A stretch of DNA of 64,000 nt from Thermodesulfovibrio aggregans (lineage in GTDB: Bacteria; Nitrospirota; Thermodesulfovibrionia; Thermodesulfovibrionales; Thermodesulfovibrionaceae): assembly GCF_001514535.1 (NCBI RefSeq), contig NZ_BCNO01000001.1, positions 454,001 through 518,000 of the forward strand, written 5' to 3'. Below the pieces are notes generated by a model. That model worked only from the letters and a program-made list of their open reading frames with translations, made no database searches and was not told the DNA's origin. The position numbers and the translations under genes were made by a program. Below are positions 4,001 through 58,594 of the stretch, in pieces. Position 1 is the first letter of the stretch. Each line of letters begins with the position of its first letter.

Positions 4001-5676
<1,676 letters not shown>

Positions 5677-5689
5677 AAATTAAGCAAAT

Positions 5690-5724
5690 AAAATCGGCAG
5701 GAAAGTTCCTGCCGATTTTATTTT
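5690..5724 (+). terminator. Rho-independent terminator after PII gene
   Basis: A near-perfect stem of about 14 bp (AAAATCGGCAGGAA opposed to TTCCTGCCGATTTT) is followed by ATTTT. It closes the outer-membrane protein-amtB-PII operon. Confidence 0.85.
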
Positions 5725-5776
5725 AAAGTTTTTAAAAATTCAGCAGGAAGCGATGTCTGAAAGATTCCCATTATGC

Positions 5777-5782
5777 TATAAT
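5777..5782 (+). promoter_or_regulatory. -10 element of the mntA/hepT promoter
   Basis: TATAAT ends only 8 bases before the mntA ATG, and I see no good -35. This predicts a leaderless or nearly leaderless mRNA. Confidence 0.35.
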
Positions 5783-5790
5783 TTCATAGA

Positions 5791-6219
5791 ATGAAAAAAT
5801 CTGAAAAACTCTTAGAAATCTGCCGTAAATTCCATATAGCACTCTTGTATGCCTTTGGTTCACAGAGGGACAATGCAATTAAGATACTGAACTTTGAGAA
5901 AGTTGATATTCATGATCCTCTGACAGATATAGATATTGGAGTAGTATTTGAAATAGACATAGAAAAAATTAAAGATAGGCGTAAGCTCTATTCAAATTTA
6001 TATAACGAAATATCTGAAATTTTTAAACCCTATTCATTGGATTTGGTTTTTCTTCAGGAATGTCATAGTTTACTTCAGATGGAAGCAATAGAGGGTTATT
6101 GTATTTATAAAATTTCTGAAGAATTTAAAGAGAATTATGAAATGCGAATTCTAAGAAAATATGCCGATGTTAAATATTTATTTGACAGATATTTTGAAGA
6201 GGCTCTTGAAGAGTATTAA
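5791..6219 (+). CDS. mntA: MNT-type nucleotidyltransferase antitoxin
   Basis: A 142-aa minimal nucleotidyltransferase. The GS pair is at residues 23-24 (YAFGSQRD), the DxD at 46/48 (TDIDIGVVF) and a third acidic strand reads YSLDLVFLQ. Known MntA antitoxins neutralise the HEPN toxin HepT by adding AMP to its active-site tyrosine. The GS-to-DxD spacing is about 21 residues, against about 10 in the usual GSX10DXD motif, because of a short insertion. The hepT gene follows 4 bases later. Confidence 0.82.
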   Translation: MKKSEKLLEICRKFHIALLYAFGSQRDNAIKILNFEKVDIHDPLTDIDIGVVFEIDIEKIKDRRKLYSNLYNEISEIFKPYSLDLVFLQECHSLLQMEAIEGYCIYKISEEFKENYEMRILRKYADVKYLFDRYFEEALEEY

Positions 6220-6223
6220 ATAA

Positions 6224-6649
6224 ATGTTGAACAAACAATTCATAAAGGAAAGGCTTGTTTTAATAAAAAGTTATACTGAAGAATTAAAAAATTTGTCAAA
6301 ACTGGATAAGGAAACATTTACAAAAAATAAGGTATATTCAGCTGCTGCTGAGAGTTTTCTTAGAAGAGCGCTTGAAGCAATTTTTGATATTGGAAGACAC
6401 ATACTCGCAAAAAAGGGTTACATAGACATATCAAAGGAATACAAATCTATTGCATCGGGCTTATCAAAAATTGGTGCAGTAGACGATGAACTCAGTGCAA
6501 AACTTATTCAGATGGCTGGATACAGAAACAGGCTGGTTCATATGTATCATACGGTAACAGAAGATGAACTTTATGAGATAATAACCGAGGATTTAAAAGA
6601 TATTGATAAATTTATAAAATCAATAAAAAAACTTCTTCAATATGATTGA
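6224..6649 (+). CDS. hepT: HEPN-domain toxin, HepT family
   Basis: A 141-aa all-helical protein of the HepT-like (DUF86) family. The ribonuclease/AMPylation motif RX4HXY is intact in GYRNRLVHMYH, where the tyrosine after the His is the known AMPylation target. It is paired with mntA in antitoxin-toxin order with a 4-base gap. RNase toxicity is known for the family and inferred here. Confidence 0.85.
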   Translation: MLNKQFIKERLVLIKSYTEELKNLSKLDKETFTKNKVYSAAAESFLRRALEAIFDIGRHILAKKGYIDISKEYKSIASGLSKIGAVDDELSAKLIQMAGYRNRLVHMYHTVTEDELYEIITEDLKDIDKFIKSIKKLLQYD

Positions 6650-6715
6650 AATCTGTATTTATTAATCCTAAATTTGTCAATTGAAAATACTGTTTTTCAC
6701 TTCCTGAGAGATTAT

Positions 6716-6744
6716 TTGACACTGTATTGCTCAAATGTTATAAT
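6716..6744 (+). promoter_or_regulatory. Consensus sigma-70 promoter for the sigma-54 activator gene
   Basis: A perfect TTGACA, a 17-base spacer and a perfect TATAAT. Transcription would start near 6751, about 25 bases before the ATG. Confidence 0.8.
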
Positions 6745-6750
6745 ATTTTA

Positions 6751-6768
6751 ACGGCAATTATTTGCCGT
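6751..6768 (+). promoter_or_regulatory. Hairpin/palindrome at the predicted transcription start
   Basis: ACGGCAA and TTGCCGT flank a four-base loop exactly where the promoter would start transcription. It could be an operator overlapping +1 or a stabilising 5' mRNA hairpin. Confidence 0.4.
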
Positions 6769-6775
6769 CTATAAT

Positions 6776-8311
6776 ATGAACAAAAGTGAAAACATAGAAT
6801 TAAAAGCACTTTTTGAAGTTAGCAGGGTTTTGACCTCATCTTTTGACCTTGAAAGAAATCTTTACTCTGTTCTTGAGATTTTATCAAAAGAACTTGACAT
6901 GCGGAGAGGAAGCATCTTTGTTCTTGACAAAAAGACAGAAGAAATCAGTATTGTTGCTGCCTATGGAATGACTCAGGAAGAAATTAGCAGAGGTATATAC
7001 AGAATTGGTGAGGGTATTGTGGGTAAAGTTATAGAAATTGGATTACCGATGTTTATTCCAGATATAGAGAAAGAACCTCAATTTCTCAATAAAACAGGTA
7101 GCAGACCAAATAAAAAAGGGATATCTTTCCTATGTGTTCCAATAAAAATAGAGGAGGAAATTCTTGGCGTTTTATCTGCTGACAGGATTTATGCTGATGA
7201 AAAGGGAGATGTTGATGATGATCTTCGAGTACTCTCAATAGTTGCTTCATTAATAGGTCAATTCCTTAAGTTATGGGAAACTTATAAAAGTATGGAAGAT
7301 GAAAATCTTATTTTAAGAACTCAGCTTAAAGACAGATACAACTTCCCCAATCTTATAGGTCAGTCACCTTCATTTCAGGCAGTGCTTAAAACAGTTATGA
7401 AAGTGGCAGGCACAGATGCCACAGTCCTTCTTTTTGGCGAGTCTGGAACAGGTAAAGAACTTATAGCGAAGACAATACATTTTCAGAGCAAGAGAGCAAA
7501 GGAACCTTTTGTTGCCATAAACTGTGCTGCAATACCTGAGGCTCTTCTTGAAGCAGAGCTTTTTGGCTCTGAAAAAGGAGCTTTCACGGGTGCTGTAAAA
7601 AGGGTTGGAAAGTTTGAACAGGCAAATGGAGGCACCATTTTTCTTGATGAAGTAGGTGAATTGCCTCTTTCACTTCAGCCAAAATTGTTGAGAGTTCTTC
7701 AGGAAAAAACAGTTGAGCCTCTTGGTTCATCAAAAACAGTAAAAGTTGATGTAAGGATTATCTCAGCTACAAACAAGGACCTTTCAGATGAAATAAGAAA
7801 AGGAGCATTCAGAGAAGACCTTTTCTGGAGGCTTAATGTGATACCTATATATATCCCACCTTTGAGAGAAAGAAAAGAAGACATACCTTTGCTCGTTGAG
7901 TACTATCTTAAAAGGTATTGCAGTATTTATAAAAAATCTGTCACCATTGATAACGAAGCTCTGAACGTGCTTGTATCCTATGATTGGCCTGGAAATGTGA
8001 GGGAGCTTGCAAATACAATTGAAAGACTTGTTGTAATGACAGAAAGCAACAAAATAAAACTTTATGATCTTCCTGATACTGTAAGAGGAAATTTAAAAAT
8101 TAAATCAACATTTTCTGGAGAAAGCAAGCTTCCTGCAGAGATTGAAGAACTTGAAAGAATACGCATAATGGATACACTTCCAAAGTTCAACTTCAATATA
8201 AGAAGGACTGCGCAGGCTTTAGGTTTAACAGAAAGACAGCTTAACTACAGAATAAAAAAATACGGGATAAAAATAAAAAAGGGAGTGAATCTCAATGATA
8301 GCAATAATTAA
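6776..8311 (+). CDS. Sigma-54-dependent activator with GAF domain (NifA-like)
   Basis: A 511-aa three-domain enhancer-binding protein. Residues about 18-165 form a GAF sensor domain. The AAA+ domain spans about 192-425, with Walker A GESGTGKE at 221-228, the sigma-54 contact loop GAFTGA at 268-273 and Walker B TIFLDE. A Fis-type HTH follows near 465-500 (RRTAQALGLTERQLNYRIKK). The GAF-AAA-Fis layout and the HTH resemble NifA, but the NifA interdomain cysteine motif is absent and no nif genes are in view. It lies just downstream of a sigma-54-type ammonium operon and might control it, which is inference. It overlaps the next gene by 17 bases. Confidence 0.9.
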   Translation: MNKSENIELKALFEVSRVLTSSFDLERNLYSVLEILSKELDMRRGSIFVLDKKTEEISIVAAYGMTQEEISRGIYRIGEGIVGKVIEIGLPMFIPDIEKEPQFLNKTGSRPNKKGISFLCVPIKIEEEILGVLSADRIYADEKGDVDDDLRVLSIVASLIGQFLKLWETYKSMEDENLILRTQLKDRYNFPNLIGQSPSFQAVLKTVMKVAGTDATVLLFGESGTGKELIAKTIHFQSKRAKEPFVAINCAAIPEALLEAELFGSEKGAFTGAVKRVGKFEQANGGTIFLDEVGELPLSLQPKLLRVLQEKTVEPLGSSKTVKVDVRIISATNKDLSDEIRKGAFREDLFWRLNVIPIYIPPLRERKEDIPLLVEYYLKRYCSIYKKSVTIDNEALNVLVSYDWPGNVRELANTIERLVVMTESNKIKLYDLPDTVRGNLKIKSTFSGESKLPAEIEELERIRIMDTLPKFNFNIRRTAQALGLTERQLNYRIKKYGIKIKKGVNLNDSNN

Positions 8312-8993
8312 AAATATTAAATCAGAAGGACCGGGAAGCATAGAGAACTATTTTATTGAAAACTCAATTCCCTACAAAATCTTTGAAGCAGAAGAAGGAG
8401 ACCTTCCATCAACTCTTGAAGACTTTAAGGGATTAATAGTTATGGGTGGACCAATGGGTGTTTATGAGATGGATATTTATCCCCATCTAAAAGTAGTCTC
8501 AAGGCTTATAAGAGAGGCAATAAACAGAAACCTTAAAGTTTTAGGGATATGCCTTGGGGCTCAATTAATTGCTCATACACTCGGTGCAAGAGTTTATAAG
8601 GGACATGGTGAAGAAATAGGCTGGCTTGACATAGAATTAACAGGAGATGGATTAAGAGACCCTTTAATGATTGCTCTTGCAAGGCATCCTTCTGTTGGTG
8701 ATGTATGGAGAAAATTCAAAGTCTTTCACTGGCATGGAGACACCTTTGAACTTCCATTTGGTGCCATACATCTTGCAAGATCATCTCTTTATGAAAATCA
8801 GGCATTCAGATACAGAGAAAATGTTTATGCTTTACAGTTTCATATTGAGGTAACAAAAGAACTTCTTGAAGAGTGGTTTGAAGAACATACTCTCAAAGAA
8901 CAAATACTCAGTGAAGCAGAAAAAATTATCTCAGAATACTCTCAAAGGGCAAGAAATTTTTATCAGGCTTTTTTCAAAATAAAACCTTTTTGA
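8295..8993 (+). CDS. Class I glutamine amidotransferase domain protein
   Basis: A 232-aa stand-alone class I glutamine amidotransferase. The nucleophile elbow is GICLGAQL (Cys near residue 87), the catalytic His-x-Glu is in LQFHIEV, and the oxyanion strand reads LIVMGGPMG. It resembles the GMP-synthase-like amidotransferases of unknown acceptor. It is not GuaA, since it lacks the ATP-pyrophosphatase half. The start lies inside the end of the sigma-54 activator gene (17-base overlap), so the two are probably co-expressed. Confidence 0.85.
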   Translation: MIAIIKNIKSEGPGSIENYFIENSIPYKIFEAEEGDLPSTLEDFKGLIVMGGPMGVYEMDIYPHLKVVSRLIREAINRNLKVLGICLGAQLIAHTLGARVYKGHGEEIGWLDIELTGDGLRDPLMIALARHPSVGDVWRKFKVFHWHGDTFELPFGAIHLARSSLYENQAFRYRENVYALQFHIEVTKELLEEWFEEHTLKEQILSEAEKIISEYSQRARNFYQAFFKIKPF

Positions 8994-9050
8994 TTATCCC
9001 TCTCGGCAAATTCGTAGAAAGAATATTATAATTAATTTTTGAGCTCATTT

Positions 9051-9962
9051 ATGAAATCATTTATGAAACATACTATCTTCAAATACGGGCTTAAGCTATT
9101 TTTCTGGTTAGGAAAAATATTAAAAAGGCATCACCTTCAGAATTTTTCAAAACTATTAGGAAGTTTTCTTTACTTTATTCCCTGGTCAAGAAAAAAAATT
9201 GCCTTTGAAAACTTAAAAATTGCCTTTCAAGTACAATACAACAAAAAAGAACTTAAGAAAATTCTAAAAAATTTTATTCAGGAAGTTATATTAACCGCAC
9301 TTGAAATTGCCTTTATCGTCAAAAAAAAAGAAAAACTTGCTTCATGGGCAAAGGCAGATGGTCTTGAAATCCTTGATGAAGCACTAAAACAAAAAAAAGG
9401 AGTTATTGCACTAAGCGGACACATTGGCAATATTCCTGTTATGCTTGCATGGCTTGCTGAAAAAGGTTATCCTGTTGCTGTTCTTTTTAAAGAAGGAAAG
9501 TATCTACCGAGGGGATTTCTTTACAACTTGATAAATTCATATAAAATCTTTCCAATTCCTTTCCGCTCTGACAGAGAAGTTCCAAAAGAGATTATTAAAG
9601 CATTAAACAAAAACATGATAGTTTTTATTTTAGCTGATCAGGCAAGACCAGGAGTTTATGCTAAATTTTTTGGTAAGAAAGTTCAGTGCCAGAAAGGTGC
9701 GTTTGTTATTGCCTTAAGAAAGGGCTGTCCCATAGTTCCTGTTTTTATAGTAAGAGAAAATGAAGGACACAGAATAAAAATTTATAAAAAGGAAAAATTT
9801 TTGCAGTTGCCAGCTCTGTCTCGAAATGACAGCTTTTCACTTTCTGATAAATCTATTGTGGATATGATTGAAGAATATAACTCACTTCTTGAAAAATTAA
9901 TTAGTCAGCATCCTGAGCAGTATTACTGGTTTCATAGAAGATTTAAGAAGAGCTTGCCGTAA
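9051..9962 (+). CDS. LpxL/HtrB-family lipid acyltransferase with altered HX4E motif
   Basis: A protein of about 303 aa in the lipid A late-acyltransferase family. It has an N-terminal membrane anchor (YGLKLFFWLGKIL), a WSRKKIAFENLKIAF segment typical of the family, and DQARPGVYAKFFGKK, the conserved DQ...G...FFG block. The catalytic HX4E box reads HIGNIP, so the acidic residue is replaced by proline. It may use another residue or have changed activity. A TTG at 9039 is an alternative start; a -10-like TATAAT lies at 9027-9032. It is convergent with msbA, overlapping it by 20 bases. Confidence 0.8.
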   Translation: MKSFMKHTIFKYGLKLFFWLGKILKRHHLQNFSKLLGSFLYFIPWSRKKIAFENLKIAFQVQYNKKELKKILKNFIQEVILTALEIAFIVKKKEKLASWAKADGLEILDEALKQKKGVIALSGHIGNIPVMLAWLAEKGYPVAVLFKEGKYLPRGFLYNLINSYKIFPIPFRSDREVPKEIIKALNKNMIVFILADQARPGVYAKFFGKKVQCQKGAFVIALRKGCPIVPVFIVRENEGHRIKIYKKEKFLQLPALSRNDSFSLSDKSIVDMIEEYNSLLEKLISQHPEQYYWFHRRFKKSLP

Positions 9963-54169: not shown

Positions 54170-55570
54170 ATGCCAGAAGTAAGAATTAAAACTCTACCCC
54201 CACCTCATGGTGGAAAACTCGTTGACAGGGTTGTACGTGACCCTGAGATGGCAAGAAAGCTGATGCAGAAATGCTCAGCAGTTTATGACATTAAACCAAC
54301 ACTTTTCAAAGGTAATCCTGTAAGAAATGTTTACAGAGAGATTATGTCCGTATGTTACGGTTTCTTCAGTCCAGTTGAAGGTTCAATGACAAAGGCAGAA
54401 CTTGAGAGTGTTCTTGAAAAAAGAAGACTTCTGAGTGGCTGGGTTTTCCCATATCCAATCCTTTTTGATATTTCAGAAGATGATTTAAAGCAACTCCGTC
54501 AAAAATATGGAGATATCGGACCTGGTGATTGGCTCCTTTTAAGATTAAAGGGTGAGCCTTTTGCAATTCTTGAGATTGAAGAAATCTATGAAATTGTTCC
54601 TGGCGATGTAGCAGTTAGAACCTTTGGTACTCCAGAGAAAAACCCAGAGGTTGTAAAGGTTCCATTTGACCAGAAACACACTGGATACAATATTTACTGT
54701 TCATTGAATCCAATCATTCTTGCAGGAAAATATACAATTATCAATGAGCCTAAATTTAGACCACCTTTTGACAGATTCTGGTATCCACCAAAGAGATCAA
54801 GAGAGGAGTTTGAAAAGAGAGGATGGACAACAGTTATTGCCCATCAGACAAGAAATGTTCCTCACACAGGACATGAAGCATTGATGAAGAATGCAGCATA
54901 TATTGGTGATATTAAACCATGCGATGGTATTGTCGTTAATGCAATAGTTGGTGCAAAGAGAATCGGTGACTTCCCAGATGAAGCAATAGTTGAAGGACAT
55001 GAGATGATTCATCTTGCTGGCTACATTAAGCCAGAGCGTCATCTTGTAACCTTCACACTCTGGGATATGAGATATGGAAACCCGATAGAATCTCTTATTC
55101 ACGCAGTAATAAGACAGAACATGGGTATTTCATTCCACATGTTTGGAAGAGACCATGCAGCACTTGGTGAGTACTATGATATTTATGCAACTCAGATACT
55201 CTGGTCGAAGGGAATTCCAAGCTTTGGTTTTGATGCTCCACCATACGAGGTTGACGGTGGATTCTATATAAGACCACAGAACATTGCTGAGTTCTGGTAT
55301 TGTCCAAAATGTAAAGAGTTTGCATACTCTGAAAACTGTACTCATAAGGGTATCTACTCAAGATACTCTGGAAGCTTTATTAGAGGACTTATTAATGAAG
55401 GCGTAATGCCGCCACCTGAAATATACAGACCTGAAGTTTACAAGGTTGTGGTAAAGTGGTGGCAGAAATTTGGATATCCATTTAACAATGAGAAGTATCT
55501 CAAAGAGAGAGAGGAGAGATTAGAGGTAGATCTCTCTCATATGGAACTTCCAGCTCACTTAAAAAAATAA
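54170..55570 (+). CDS. sat: Sulfate adenylyltransferase (ATP sulfurylase)
   Basis: A 466-aa homo-oligomeric ATP sulfurylase. The nucleotide motif is AHQTRNVPHTGHEALMK and the second active-site motif MFGRDHAALGEYYDIY. A zinc ribbon is visible as CPKCKEFAYSENCTHK. It makes APS and pyrophosphate from sulfate and ATP, the entry step of dissimilatory sulfate reduction. The QTRNV pattern has V where QTRNP is usual. Confidence 0.97.
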   Translation: MPEVRIKTLPPPHGGKLVDRVVRDPEMARKLMQKCSAVYDIKPTLFKGNPVRNVYREIMSVCYGFFSPVEGSMTKAELESVLEKRRLLSGWVFPYPILFDISEDDLKQLRQKYGDIGPGDWLLLRLKGEPFAILEIEEIYEIVPGDVAVRTFGTPEKNPEVVKVPFDQKHTGYNIYCSLNPIILAGKYTIINEPKFRPPFDRFWYPPKRSREEFEKRGWTTVIAHQTRNVPHTGHEALMKNAAYIGDIKPCDGIVVNAIVGAKRIGDFPDEAIVEGHEMIHLAGYIKPERHLVTFTLWDMRYGNPIESLIHAVIRQNMGISFHMFGRDHAALGEYYDIYATQILWSKGIPSFGFDAPPYEVDGGFYIRPQNIAEFWYCPKCKEFAYSENCTHKGIYSRYSGSFIRGLINEGVMPPPEIYRPEVYKVVVKWWQKFGYPFNNEKYLKEREERLEVDLSHMELPAHLKK

Positions 55571-55582
55571 AGGAGGTGAATA

Positions 55583-55984
55583 ATGGCTAAGTTTTTTGGA
55601 GTAGTAATTGATGAAAAGAGATTGGCAGCTATAAAGGGTACACCCCTTGAAGAAAAAGTTGAGCCAATTTTTGGTGGAGCATTAAAAAGACTCGTAATTG
55701 AAGTTCCTGATGACCTCGGGCAGAAGGTTATTGAGCAGTTCTCTAAGGCAAGATTTGATGCCAGAGGCTTCATTGAGGAGACACCAGCTGCATTTAAAAG
55801 ACTTGTTTTTAAGAAAATTGTAGAGATGAAGTCTTTGGGACCAGAAGTCATAGAAGCTGCTGTTGCTGAGATTCCATCAATAAAAGATGATATTGAAAAG
55901 GAAGATAGAGAGCTTCCAGTTCCTGATATTGATATAAGTGATGTGCTGGAATTACAGAAAAATCCAGTACAAAAACCAGCATAA
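55583..55984 (+). CDS. 133-aa protein of unknown function between sat and aprB
   Basis: I do not recognise this family with confidence. It is soluble and has no cysteines, no signal and no membrane segment. Residues 1-85 look alpha/beta (AKFFGVVIDEKRLAAIKG, GALKRLVIEVPDDLGQKVIE), and the C-terminal third is acidic and Pro-rich (DDIEKEDRELPVPDIDISDV). A strong GGAGG RBS and 12- and 24-base gaps place it firmly in the sat-apr operon. A role in APS handling or in AprAB assembly or regulation is inference from context only. Confidence 0.75.
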   Translation: MAKFFGVVIDEKRLAAIKGTPLEEKVEPIFGGALKRLVIEVPDDLGQKVIEQFSKARFDARGFIEETPAAFKRLVFKKIVEMKSLGPEVIEAAVAEIPSIKDDIEKEDRELPVPDIDISDVLELQKNPVQKPA

Positions 55985-56008
55985 AAAAACAAAAAAGGAG
56001 GTTAAGCT

Positions 56009-56437
56009 ATGCCAAGTTTTGTAATTCAAGAAAAGTGTGACGGTTGCAAGGCACAGGACAAGACTGCATGTCAGTACATCTGTCCTAATGACCTTATGAC
56101 ACTGGACAGAGAAAAGATGAAGGCTTACAATCAGGAGCCAGATCAGTGCTGGGAGTGCTACAACTGTGTAAAAATCTGCCCTCAACAGGCAATTGAAATC
56201 AGAGGTTACGCAGATTTCTTCCCACTCGGAGCAAGCGTTATCCCAATGAGAGGTCAGGATGCCATTATGTGGACAATTAAGTTCAGAAATGGCGCAATTA
56301 AGAGATTCAAATTCCCAATAAGACTTACACCTGAGGGATACTGGAAGGCTGAAAACATTTATGAGGGATTACCTGAGCCTGACTACTCAAAGATTAAAGG
56401 TCCTGGCTACTTCAATTATGAAGCCAGAAAAGAGTAA
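56009..56437 (+). CDS. aprB: APS reductase beta subunit
   Basis: A 142-aa ferredoxin-like subunit with two [4Fe-4S] clusters: CDGCKAQDKTACQYICP and CWECYNCVKICP. RGYADFFPLGASVIPMRG and the C-terminal tail that wraps AprA follow. It passes electrons, probably from QmoABC, to the FAD of AprA. Confidence 0.97.
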   Translation: MPSFVIQEKCDGCKAQDKTACQYICPNDLMTLDREKMKAYNQEPDQCWECYNCVKICPQQAIEIRGYADFFPLGASVIPMRGQDAIMWTIKFRNGAIKRFKFPIRLTPEGYWKAENIYEGLPEPDYSKIKGPGYFNYEARKE

Positions 56438-56465: not shown

Positions 56466-58454
56466 ATGGAAAAAGAGACTTGCACATTTTCATACTGTCA
56501 GAAGCCAGAAACAGTAGTTGTTGAGACCGATTTACTCATAATCGGTGGTGGTATGGCTGCCTGTGGTGCTGCATTTGAGGCTTGCAGATGGGCAACACCA
56601 AAGGGAATTAAAGTAACAATGGTTGACAAGGCTGCAACAGACCGTTCTGGTGCAGTTGCCATGGGTCTCAGTGCTATCAACACCTACATTGGTGAGAATA
56701 AAGTTGAGGACTATGTAAGATATGTCCGTGCAGACCTCATGGGAATCATCAGAGAAGACCTTGTTTATGACCTTGGAAGACATGTAGACAATTCTGTTCA
56801 CATGTTTGAGGAATGGGGTCTTCCAATTTGGAAAAAGAGCGATGATGGATGGTCACTTGATGGCTTTCAGGCAAGAGACCAGGGCAAACCAAAACTTAAA
56901 GATGGTGGAGTTCCATGCCGTTCTGGAAAATGGCAGATAATGATCAACGGTGAATCTTACAAAGTCATCGTTGCAGAGGCAGCAAAAGCAGCCCTTGAAT
57001 ACAATAGAAAAGCTCTCAACATTCCACAGAACCATTTTGAGAGAGTATTTATTGTTAAACTCATCAAAGATGCAAAAGAGGCAAACAGAGTAGCTGGTGC
57101 AATTGGCTTTAGTGTTAGAGAAAATAAAGTATATGTATTTAAAGCAAAGGCAATACTCAATGCATCTGGTGGTGCAGTTAATGTATTTAGACCAAGATCA
57201 ACACGTGAAGGACAGGGTAGAGCCTGGTATCCTGTATGGAACTCTGGTTCTGGATACTATCTTGGCATGAGCGTTGGCGCTGAGATGACAATGATGGAAA
57301 ACAGATTCGTTCCTGCAAGATTCAAAGATGGATACGGACCAGTTGGTGCCTGGTTCCTCTTCTTCAAAGCAAAAGCTACAGATGCCCTTGGTAATGATTA
57401 CTGTTCAAAAGAAACTCCAGAGTTTAAAGATGCTCTCCAGAAATACGGAAAGTGGGCAGATGCTCTTGGAACAGCAATAAGAAACCATCTTATGATGCAG
57501 GCTATGAGGCAAGGTAGAGGTCCTATCCTCATGAATACACACACAGCCATGCAGGAACTTGCAAAACAGATGGATCCAAAGAGACTTAAACACCTTGAAG
57601 CAGAAGCATGGGAAGACTTCCTTGACATGTGTATCTCCCAGGCAGGACTCTGGGCAGCCAATAACGTTGAACCAGATAAAGTTCCATCTGAAATTATGCC
57701 AACAGAGCCTTATCTCCTCGGTTCACATGCAGGTTGCGCAGGCTTCTGGGTAAGCGGACCTGGAGATATACCAGGTACACCTGCTGAGTGGTTCTGGGGC
57801 TACAACAGAATGAGCACAGTAGCAGGTCTATTCATGGCTGGTGACATTGTCGGAGCTTCCGGACATAAATTCTCCTCTGGTTCACATGCTGAGGGTAGAA
57901 TAGCTGCAAAAGCAGCCATTGCCTTTATACTTGACAATGCCAGCTATACACCTGAATTAGCAGCAAATATAGATGAACTTGTTGCTGAGATTTATCTGCC
58001 ATTTGAAATTTATGAAAAATACAAGACATATTCTACAGACCCAGCAGTCAATCCATACTACATCAGACCAAATATGTATCAGGCAAGACTTCAGAAGATT
58101 GCTGACGAATACTTCGGCGGAGTCAGCACCTGGTACATGACCTCAAAGACAATGATTGAGGAAGGTCTTAGAAAACTTCAACTTCTTAAGGAAGACGCTG
58201 CAAGACTTGCAGCAGCCAATCTCCATGAGCTTCTCCGTTGCTGGGAGAACTATCACAGAGCACTCTCCCTTGAGGCTCATGCAAGACATATCCTCTTCAG
58301 AGAGGAATCCAGATATCCTGGTTACTACTACAGAGGCGACTTTGACTTTGTTGATGATAATAACTGGCGTTGTTTTGTCAATTCAGTATATGATCCAGCT
58401 ACTGACACATTTACACTTAAGAAAGTTCCATACGTCCAGATCATTCCTGATTAA
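56466..58454 (+). CDS. aprA: APS reductase alpha subunit
   Basis: A 662-aa flavoprotein of the fumarate reductase family. The FAD site is LLIIGGGMAACGAAFEA, ending MVDKAATDRSGAVAMG. Later blocks include EMTMMENRFVPARFKDGYGP and GDIVGASGHKFSSGSHAEGR. It reduces APS to sulfite and AMP in the cytoplasm. An RBS (GGAGG) precedes it, and two hairpins follow. Confidence 0.98.
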   Translation: MEKETCTFSYCQKPETVVVETDLLIIGGGMAACGAAFEACRWATPKGIKVTMVDKAATDRSGAVAMGLSAINTYIGENKVEDYVRYVRADLMGIIREDLVYDLGRHVDNSVHMFEEWGLPIWKKSDDGWSLDGFQARDQGKPKLKDGGVPCRSGKWQIMINGESYKVIVAEAAKAALEYNRKALNIPQNHFERVFIVKLIKDAKEANRVAGAIGFSVRENKVYVFKAKAILNASGGAVNVFRPRSTREGQGRAWYPVWNSGSGYYLGMSVGAEMTMMENRFVPARFKDGYGPVGAWFLFFKAKATDALGNDYCSKETPEFKDALQKYGKWADALGTAIRNHLMMQAMRQGRGPILMNTHTAMQELAKQMDPKRLKHLEAEAWEDFLDMCISQAGLWAANNVEPDKVPSEIMPTEPYLLGSHAGCAGFWVSGPGDIPGTPAEWFWGYNRMSTVAGLFMAGDIVGASGHKFSSGSHAEGRIAAKAAIAFILDNASYTPELAANIDELVAEIYLPFEIYEKYKTYSTDPAVNPYYIRPNMYQARLQKIADEYFGGVSTWYMTSKTMIEEGLRKLQLLKEDAARLAAANLHELLRCWENYHRALSLEAHARHILFREESRYPGYYYRGDFDFVDDNNWRCFVNSVYDPATDTFTLKKVPYVQIIPD

Positions 58455-58467
58455 TATGAGGGTGAAT

Positions 58468-58495
58468 AAGGGAGGGAGGCAACTCCCTCCCTTTA
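58468..58495 (+). terminator. Terminator or attenuator after aprA
   Basis: An 11-bp GC-rich stem (AAGGGAGGGAG opposed to CTCCCTCCCTT) with a GCAA loop, the same loop as the dsrC terminator. The T-run is short (TTT), so partial termination is likely. Confidence 0.7.
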
Positions 58496-58519
58496 AATTC
58501 TTGGTTTTTGGTTTAAATT

Positions 58520-58561
58520 AAAAATTCGTAATGCAGTTTTAAAACTGTATTACGAATTTTT
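58520..58561 (+). terminator. 42-bp palindrome between aprA and qmoA
   Basis: AAAAATTCGTAATGCAG and its near-complement flank a TTTTAAAA centre. There is one mismatch, which is a G-U pair in the plus-strand RNA. Flanking A and T runs allow it to act as a bidirectional terminator or as a second step of attenuation. An operator is an alternative. Confidence 0.55.
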
Positions 58562-58594
58562 ATGTTTAAGATAATTCGATAAAGGAGGCTGAGA

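Follow-up and report, generated by a model that had tools for sequence, protein, structure and literature searches.

A DUF6955 gene next to sat in Thermodesulfovibrio aggregans and its linkage to one clade of ATP sulfurylases

Results

A conserved DUF6955 gene follows sat

The window analysed here, a stretch of 64,000 nucleotides from Thermodesulfovibrio aggregans, contains sat, a small gene of the DUF6955 family, aprB and aprA (Table 1), and downstream of aprA lie candidates for genes that, from gene order and general knowledge, we take to be qmoA, qmoB and qmoC. Between aprA and the presumed qmoA (58470-58580) there are two strong hairpins, with a fold z-score of -9; one is a GC-rich stem closed by a short loop, the other a long, near-perfect inverted repeat, and they may act in transcription termination or attenuation between apr and qmo.

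Table 1. Features around the DUF6955 gene of the window
Feature	Position	Strand	Basis
sat, ATP sulfurylase (466 aa, TIGR00339) of the DUF6955-linked Sat clade; constant partner	54170..55570	+	Family match, tree, profile
Shine-Dalgarno sequence AGGAGGTGA, directly 3' of the sat stop codon	55571..55579	+	Read from the sequence
DUF6955 (PF22271) gene, 133 aa, subtype B, sat-linked	55583..55984	+	ORF (ATG at 55583, stop codon ending at 55984), Pfam match, alignment, dN/dS
aprB (TIGR02060); neighbour here, no constant partner of the DUF6955 family	56009..56437	+	Family match
aprA (TIGR02061); neighbour here, no constant partner of the DUF6955 family	56466..58454	+	Family match

The stop codon of sat is followed by AGGAGG, and the DUF6955 gene starts six bases further on. 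Sequence comparison with its relatives confirms this ORF as a genuine conserved gene, and not a chance frame, because its dN/dS against seven relatives is low (about 0.03–0.09), because an antisense ORF over the same bases (55555-55992, 145 aa) is open in just one of the seven relatives checked, and was thus dropped, and because its product scores 99.4 bits against PF22271 in hmmscan, with a cut-off of 27. Membership of PF22271 was taken as a score above the gathering threshold across most of the 91-position model; the window protein belongs to the family, covering positions 4-90, and a match was obtained for all 77 aligned proteins, the window protein among them. The initial annotation of a conserved 133-aa protein with a strong ribosome binding site is therefore borne out by the Shine-Dalgarno sequence, the dN/dS values and the Pfam match.

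That annotation also saw no readable function in the protein, which stands in that Pfam states none for PF22271, although the protein was already classed there as DUF6955, and as a sequence it is therefore not new. We obtained no NCBIfam name for it, and DUF6955, AF1668 and SSO2911 were not mentioned in the papers searched. Likewise, the absence of cysteine holds for the window protein but is not a family trait, because many relatives carry one to three. The gene is present in a single copy in its own genome, and the nearest relatives of the window are Thermodesulfovibrio loci.

DUF6955 proteins form three sets

DUF6955 was found in 19 of the 198 genomes from the phylum of the window, and exceeded the cut-off in 66 of 345 genomes from a second phylum, that of locus L010 (Thermodesulfobacterium). 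Among 14 control genomes it appeared in Sulfolobus acidocaldarius only, which also has a Sat, but no AprA or DsrA over the cut-off, and four further control genomes contained a Sat without DUF6955. No relatives were retrieved from the plasmids and viral contigs searched. Because aprA and dsrA exceeded the cut-off in, respectively, 64 and 65 of 67 DUF6955-bearing genomes, the setting of the family in these phyla is dissimilatory sulfur metabolism.

The proteins fall into three sets, designated A, B and D. Type A proteins, of about 100 aa, are encoded after sat genes of about 420 codons, whereas those of type B, which include the window protein, have about 118–135 aa with a Pro/acidic tail and follow sat genes of about 450–470 codons. 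Type D proteins (about 107 aa) are encoded away from sat and, in several loci, upstream of genes for a 113-aa protein, a TPR protein, dsrA and dsrB. Type D thus points to an additional recruitment of the family in the vicinity of DsrAB. The dsr-linked arrangement is found at positions 5012-9064 of locus L087, where dsrD follows, and also in L126, L129-L131, L133 and L136; dsrD and dsrC come next in one type D locus. The 113-aa protein matched no Pfam or NCBIfam family, and its gene is a second unexplained small one linked to dsr. The distinction between types A and B, linked to sat, and type D, linked to dsr, comes from this analysis. Two genomes, G306 (L077, L078) and G273 (L081, L082), contain sat-DUF6955 pairs of both type A and type B. 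Archaeoglobus presumably has an ORF between sat and aprBA.

The constant partner is one clade of Sat

For every type A or B copy whose upstream side was covered, the gene immediately before it is sat, on the same strand and separated by a short gap. We defined as sat-linked those DUF6955 genes found directly downstream, on the same strand, of a sat gene from the DUF6955-linked clade, and the window gene, directly 3' of such a sat, is one of them. In the Sat tree, the 81 linked Sats, including that of the window (row L022), were on one side of a branch with a support of 100, opposite to the 19 unlinked Sats, although this is a small sample and the tree program gave a long-branch warning. A profile of the linked Sats retrieved, from the 345 genomes of the second phylum, 54 matches at 496–778 bits, with the next best at 322, and all 54 were followed by DUF6955, a figure that leans on this clean score gap because the profile was built from linked Sats. 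Conversely, DUF6955 without a Sat of the clade was limited to 16 copies of type D, a further one located at the end of a contig (G362) and a single sub-threshold match. A 558-aa open frame in locus L096 was considered as a Sat-DUF6955 fusion and rejected, as it turned out to be two separate genes whose frames differ.

Compared with the other Sats sampled, the linked ones have a C-terminal insertion of nine residues (KFGYPFNNEKYLK in L002), and type B Sats have further insertions of 10, 7 and 11 residues. The subtype of Sat corresponded to the matching subtype of DUF6955 in all 71 loci. Additionally, the distance matrices of both proteins were highly correlated (r of 0.94 over 70 loci), with none of 500 permutations reaching this value; permutations leave shared ancestry in, and the useful control is how differently AprA and AprB from these loci behave. 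For the 38 loci containing the four genes, r was 0.95 for Sat-DUF6955, but 0.48 for DUF6955-AprB, 0.38 for DUF6955-AprA and 0.39 for Sat-AprA, with 0.80 for AprA-AprB. Inside single types, the Sat-DUF6955 correlation was 0.89–0.93 for type B and 0.63–0.69 for type A.

The pair has also moved as a unit. Compared with the window, loci L009 and L010 show 85–87% identity for Sat and 72–85% for DUF6955, but just about 61–63% for AprA and AprB. In tree distances, a Thermodesulfovibrio locus is separated from L009, L010 and L120 by 0.14–0.17 for Sat, 0.28–0.54 for DUF6955 and 0.92–0.96 for AprA, whereas its AprA distance to Nitrospirota of the same order or class is 0.44–0.47. Closeness in Sat and DUF6955 with distant AprA shows that sat and DUF6955 crossed phyla jointly and that the adjacent apr genes did not.

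aprBA is an inconstant neighbour

The position of the gene between those for the APS-making and APS-using enzymes had been proposed as a clue to its function, with linkage to sat-apr in several sulfate reducers as a check. The tie to sat recurs across many sulfate reducers, which belong to two phyla or more, but apr is near in about half of the cases: aprBA was within the examined stretch for 38 of 71 sat-DUF6955 pairs and absent for the other 33, some of these absences being possibly due to contig ends. Elsewhere, the pairs are followed by unrelated genes, such as those for NamZ, tRNA synthetases, NADH-dehydrogenase subunits, an AIR-synthase-like protein or TauE. Moreover, in genomes with two types of Sat it is the Sat without DUF6955 that is encoded within about 1 kb of aprA, with the sat-DUF6955 pair elsewhere; examples are G410, G515, G533, G361, G386, G104 and G154. 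The two kinds of Sat possibly serve opposite directions, or assimilation. The constant partner of sat-linked DUF6955 is thus one Sat clade and not the Sat-AprB junction, and the in-between position is not supported as the clue.

These results bear on the idea that DUF6955 couples Sat to AprAB, by handing over APS or as a scaffold between both enzymes. The proximity of aprBA in Thermodesulfovibrio and in about half of the sampled loci, together with the frequent presence of aprA in DUF6955-bearing genomes, agree with such a role. We nevertheless consider it improbable, given the many loci lacking aprBA, the poor correlation of the DUF6955 tree with those of AprA and AprB, the transfer of the pair without apr, the DUF-less Sat adjoining aprA in two-Sat genomes, and the occurrence of DUF6955 and Sat in S. 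acidocaldarius with AprA below the cut-off.

Predicted structure and conserved residues

The structure predicted for the window protein (mean pLDDT of 91.5, pTM of 0.78) consists of an alpha/beta domain, the folded core, which covers about residues 1–100, and of a tail (residues 109-133) predicted with less certainty; the tail is conserved and Pro/acidic, ELPVPDIDISDVLELQKNPVQKPA. When the model was compared with the PDB using Foldseek and VIA-align, no match rose above noise, although this is no proof that the fold is new, and a profile search of PDB sequences retrieved nothing credible. In the alignment of the family, the only invariant columns are G32 and P68, with F53, D59 and K83 nearly invariant; few conserved polar residues are common to all subtypes. 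An enzymatic or redox role would thus be unlikely, because no Cys or His is conserved across the subtypes.

Since sat and the DUF6955 gene are in frame, a read-through product could be folded, with one copy of Sat and a linker of five residues; it reached a pTM of 0.74, but the pLDDT was lower for the DUF6955 portion and no confident interface emerged. With a single Sat and such a linker, this fold is a weak test of contact.

Arg13 and Asp59 are kept inside the sat-linked types, and these few polar positions would suit a separate small protein that handles a substrate or product of Sat, by binding or clearing APS, sulfate or pyrophosphate, a role that could also account for the strict linkage to sat. 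We give this option little probability too, because there is no recognisable fold or family match, a paralogue (type D) is found beside dsrAB, and most Sats do without DUF6955.

Discussion

Our preferred explanation, to which we assign a probability of roughly 60%, is that the DUF6955 protein serves one clade of dissimilatory Sat exclusively, as a small, non-catalytic accessory subunit or as a regulator. Genomic linkage alone is no proof of contact between the two proteins, but from the strict one-to-one linkage, the matched subtypes, the mirrored trees and the joint transfer we infer that DUF6955, whose translation comes immediately after that of Sat, probably binds this enzyme, and that it would tune the activity, direction, assembly or stability of Sat without catalysing a reaction itself, in the way that DsrD acts on DsrAB. 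In subtype B, the most plausible contacts would be the conserved C-terminal tail of DUF6955 and the insertions found only in type B Sats; for all members, a candidate contact is the C-terminal insertion shared by the whole Sat clade. Binding to Sat cannot be a function common to all DUF6955 proteins, because type D is encoded away from sat and, in several loci, beside dsrAB.

That DUF6955 instead helps Sats of this clade to fold or assemble, and is absent from the finished enzyme, appears improbable to us. Its translation directly after Sat and the same linkage and co-evolution data fit that role; against it, Sats outside the clade need no such factor, and nothing here tells it apart from a stable subunit.

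The activation of sulfate consumes ATP and is the gate to all dissimilatory sulfate reduction, and a single enzyme, Sat, is described as carrying it out. That DUF6955 is encoded alongside all the sampled members of a single Sat branch points to a missing component of this step. A more ambitious proposal, which we regard as rather unlikely, is that this Sat clade, that of thermophilic sulfate reducers included, is a two-protein enzyme with an overlooked second subunit, DUF6955, which sets activity or direction, and that a paralogue does likewise for DsrAB; if true, regulators from one family would serve sulfate respiration both at its energy-investing step and at its reducing one. DUF6955 marks the type of Sat carried by a genome and could help to explain the direction, reducing or oxidising, taken by related Sats. 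Being small, soluble and expressible, it is also a target for which a clear test exists.

The tie of DUF6955 to one Sat clade, and the proposal of a dedicated Sat partner, appear to be new here, although small partners of sulfur-pathway enzymes are already known in kind, as is the case of DsrD. CysN, a GTPase, is similar to DUF6955 in being a second protein that serves an ATP sulfurylase; it differs in that it is a GTPase for another enzyme family, whereas DUF6955 proteins have about 100–135 aa and match no nucleotide-binding family. CysDN is a heterodimeric ATP sulfurylase (PMC3779200). The closest parallel in role is DsrD, described as an allosteric activator of DsrAB in 2022 work, as cited in PMC10591310. 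The window protein does not match the DsrD family (PF08679), with hmmscan giving DUF6955 only (E up to 1), and one locus with a type D DUF6955 contains dsrD as a gene in its own right. The likeness is thus one of role and not of sequence: both are small proteins encoded beside the sulfur-pathway enzyme that they serve or, for DUF6955, would serve.
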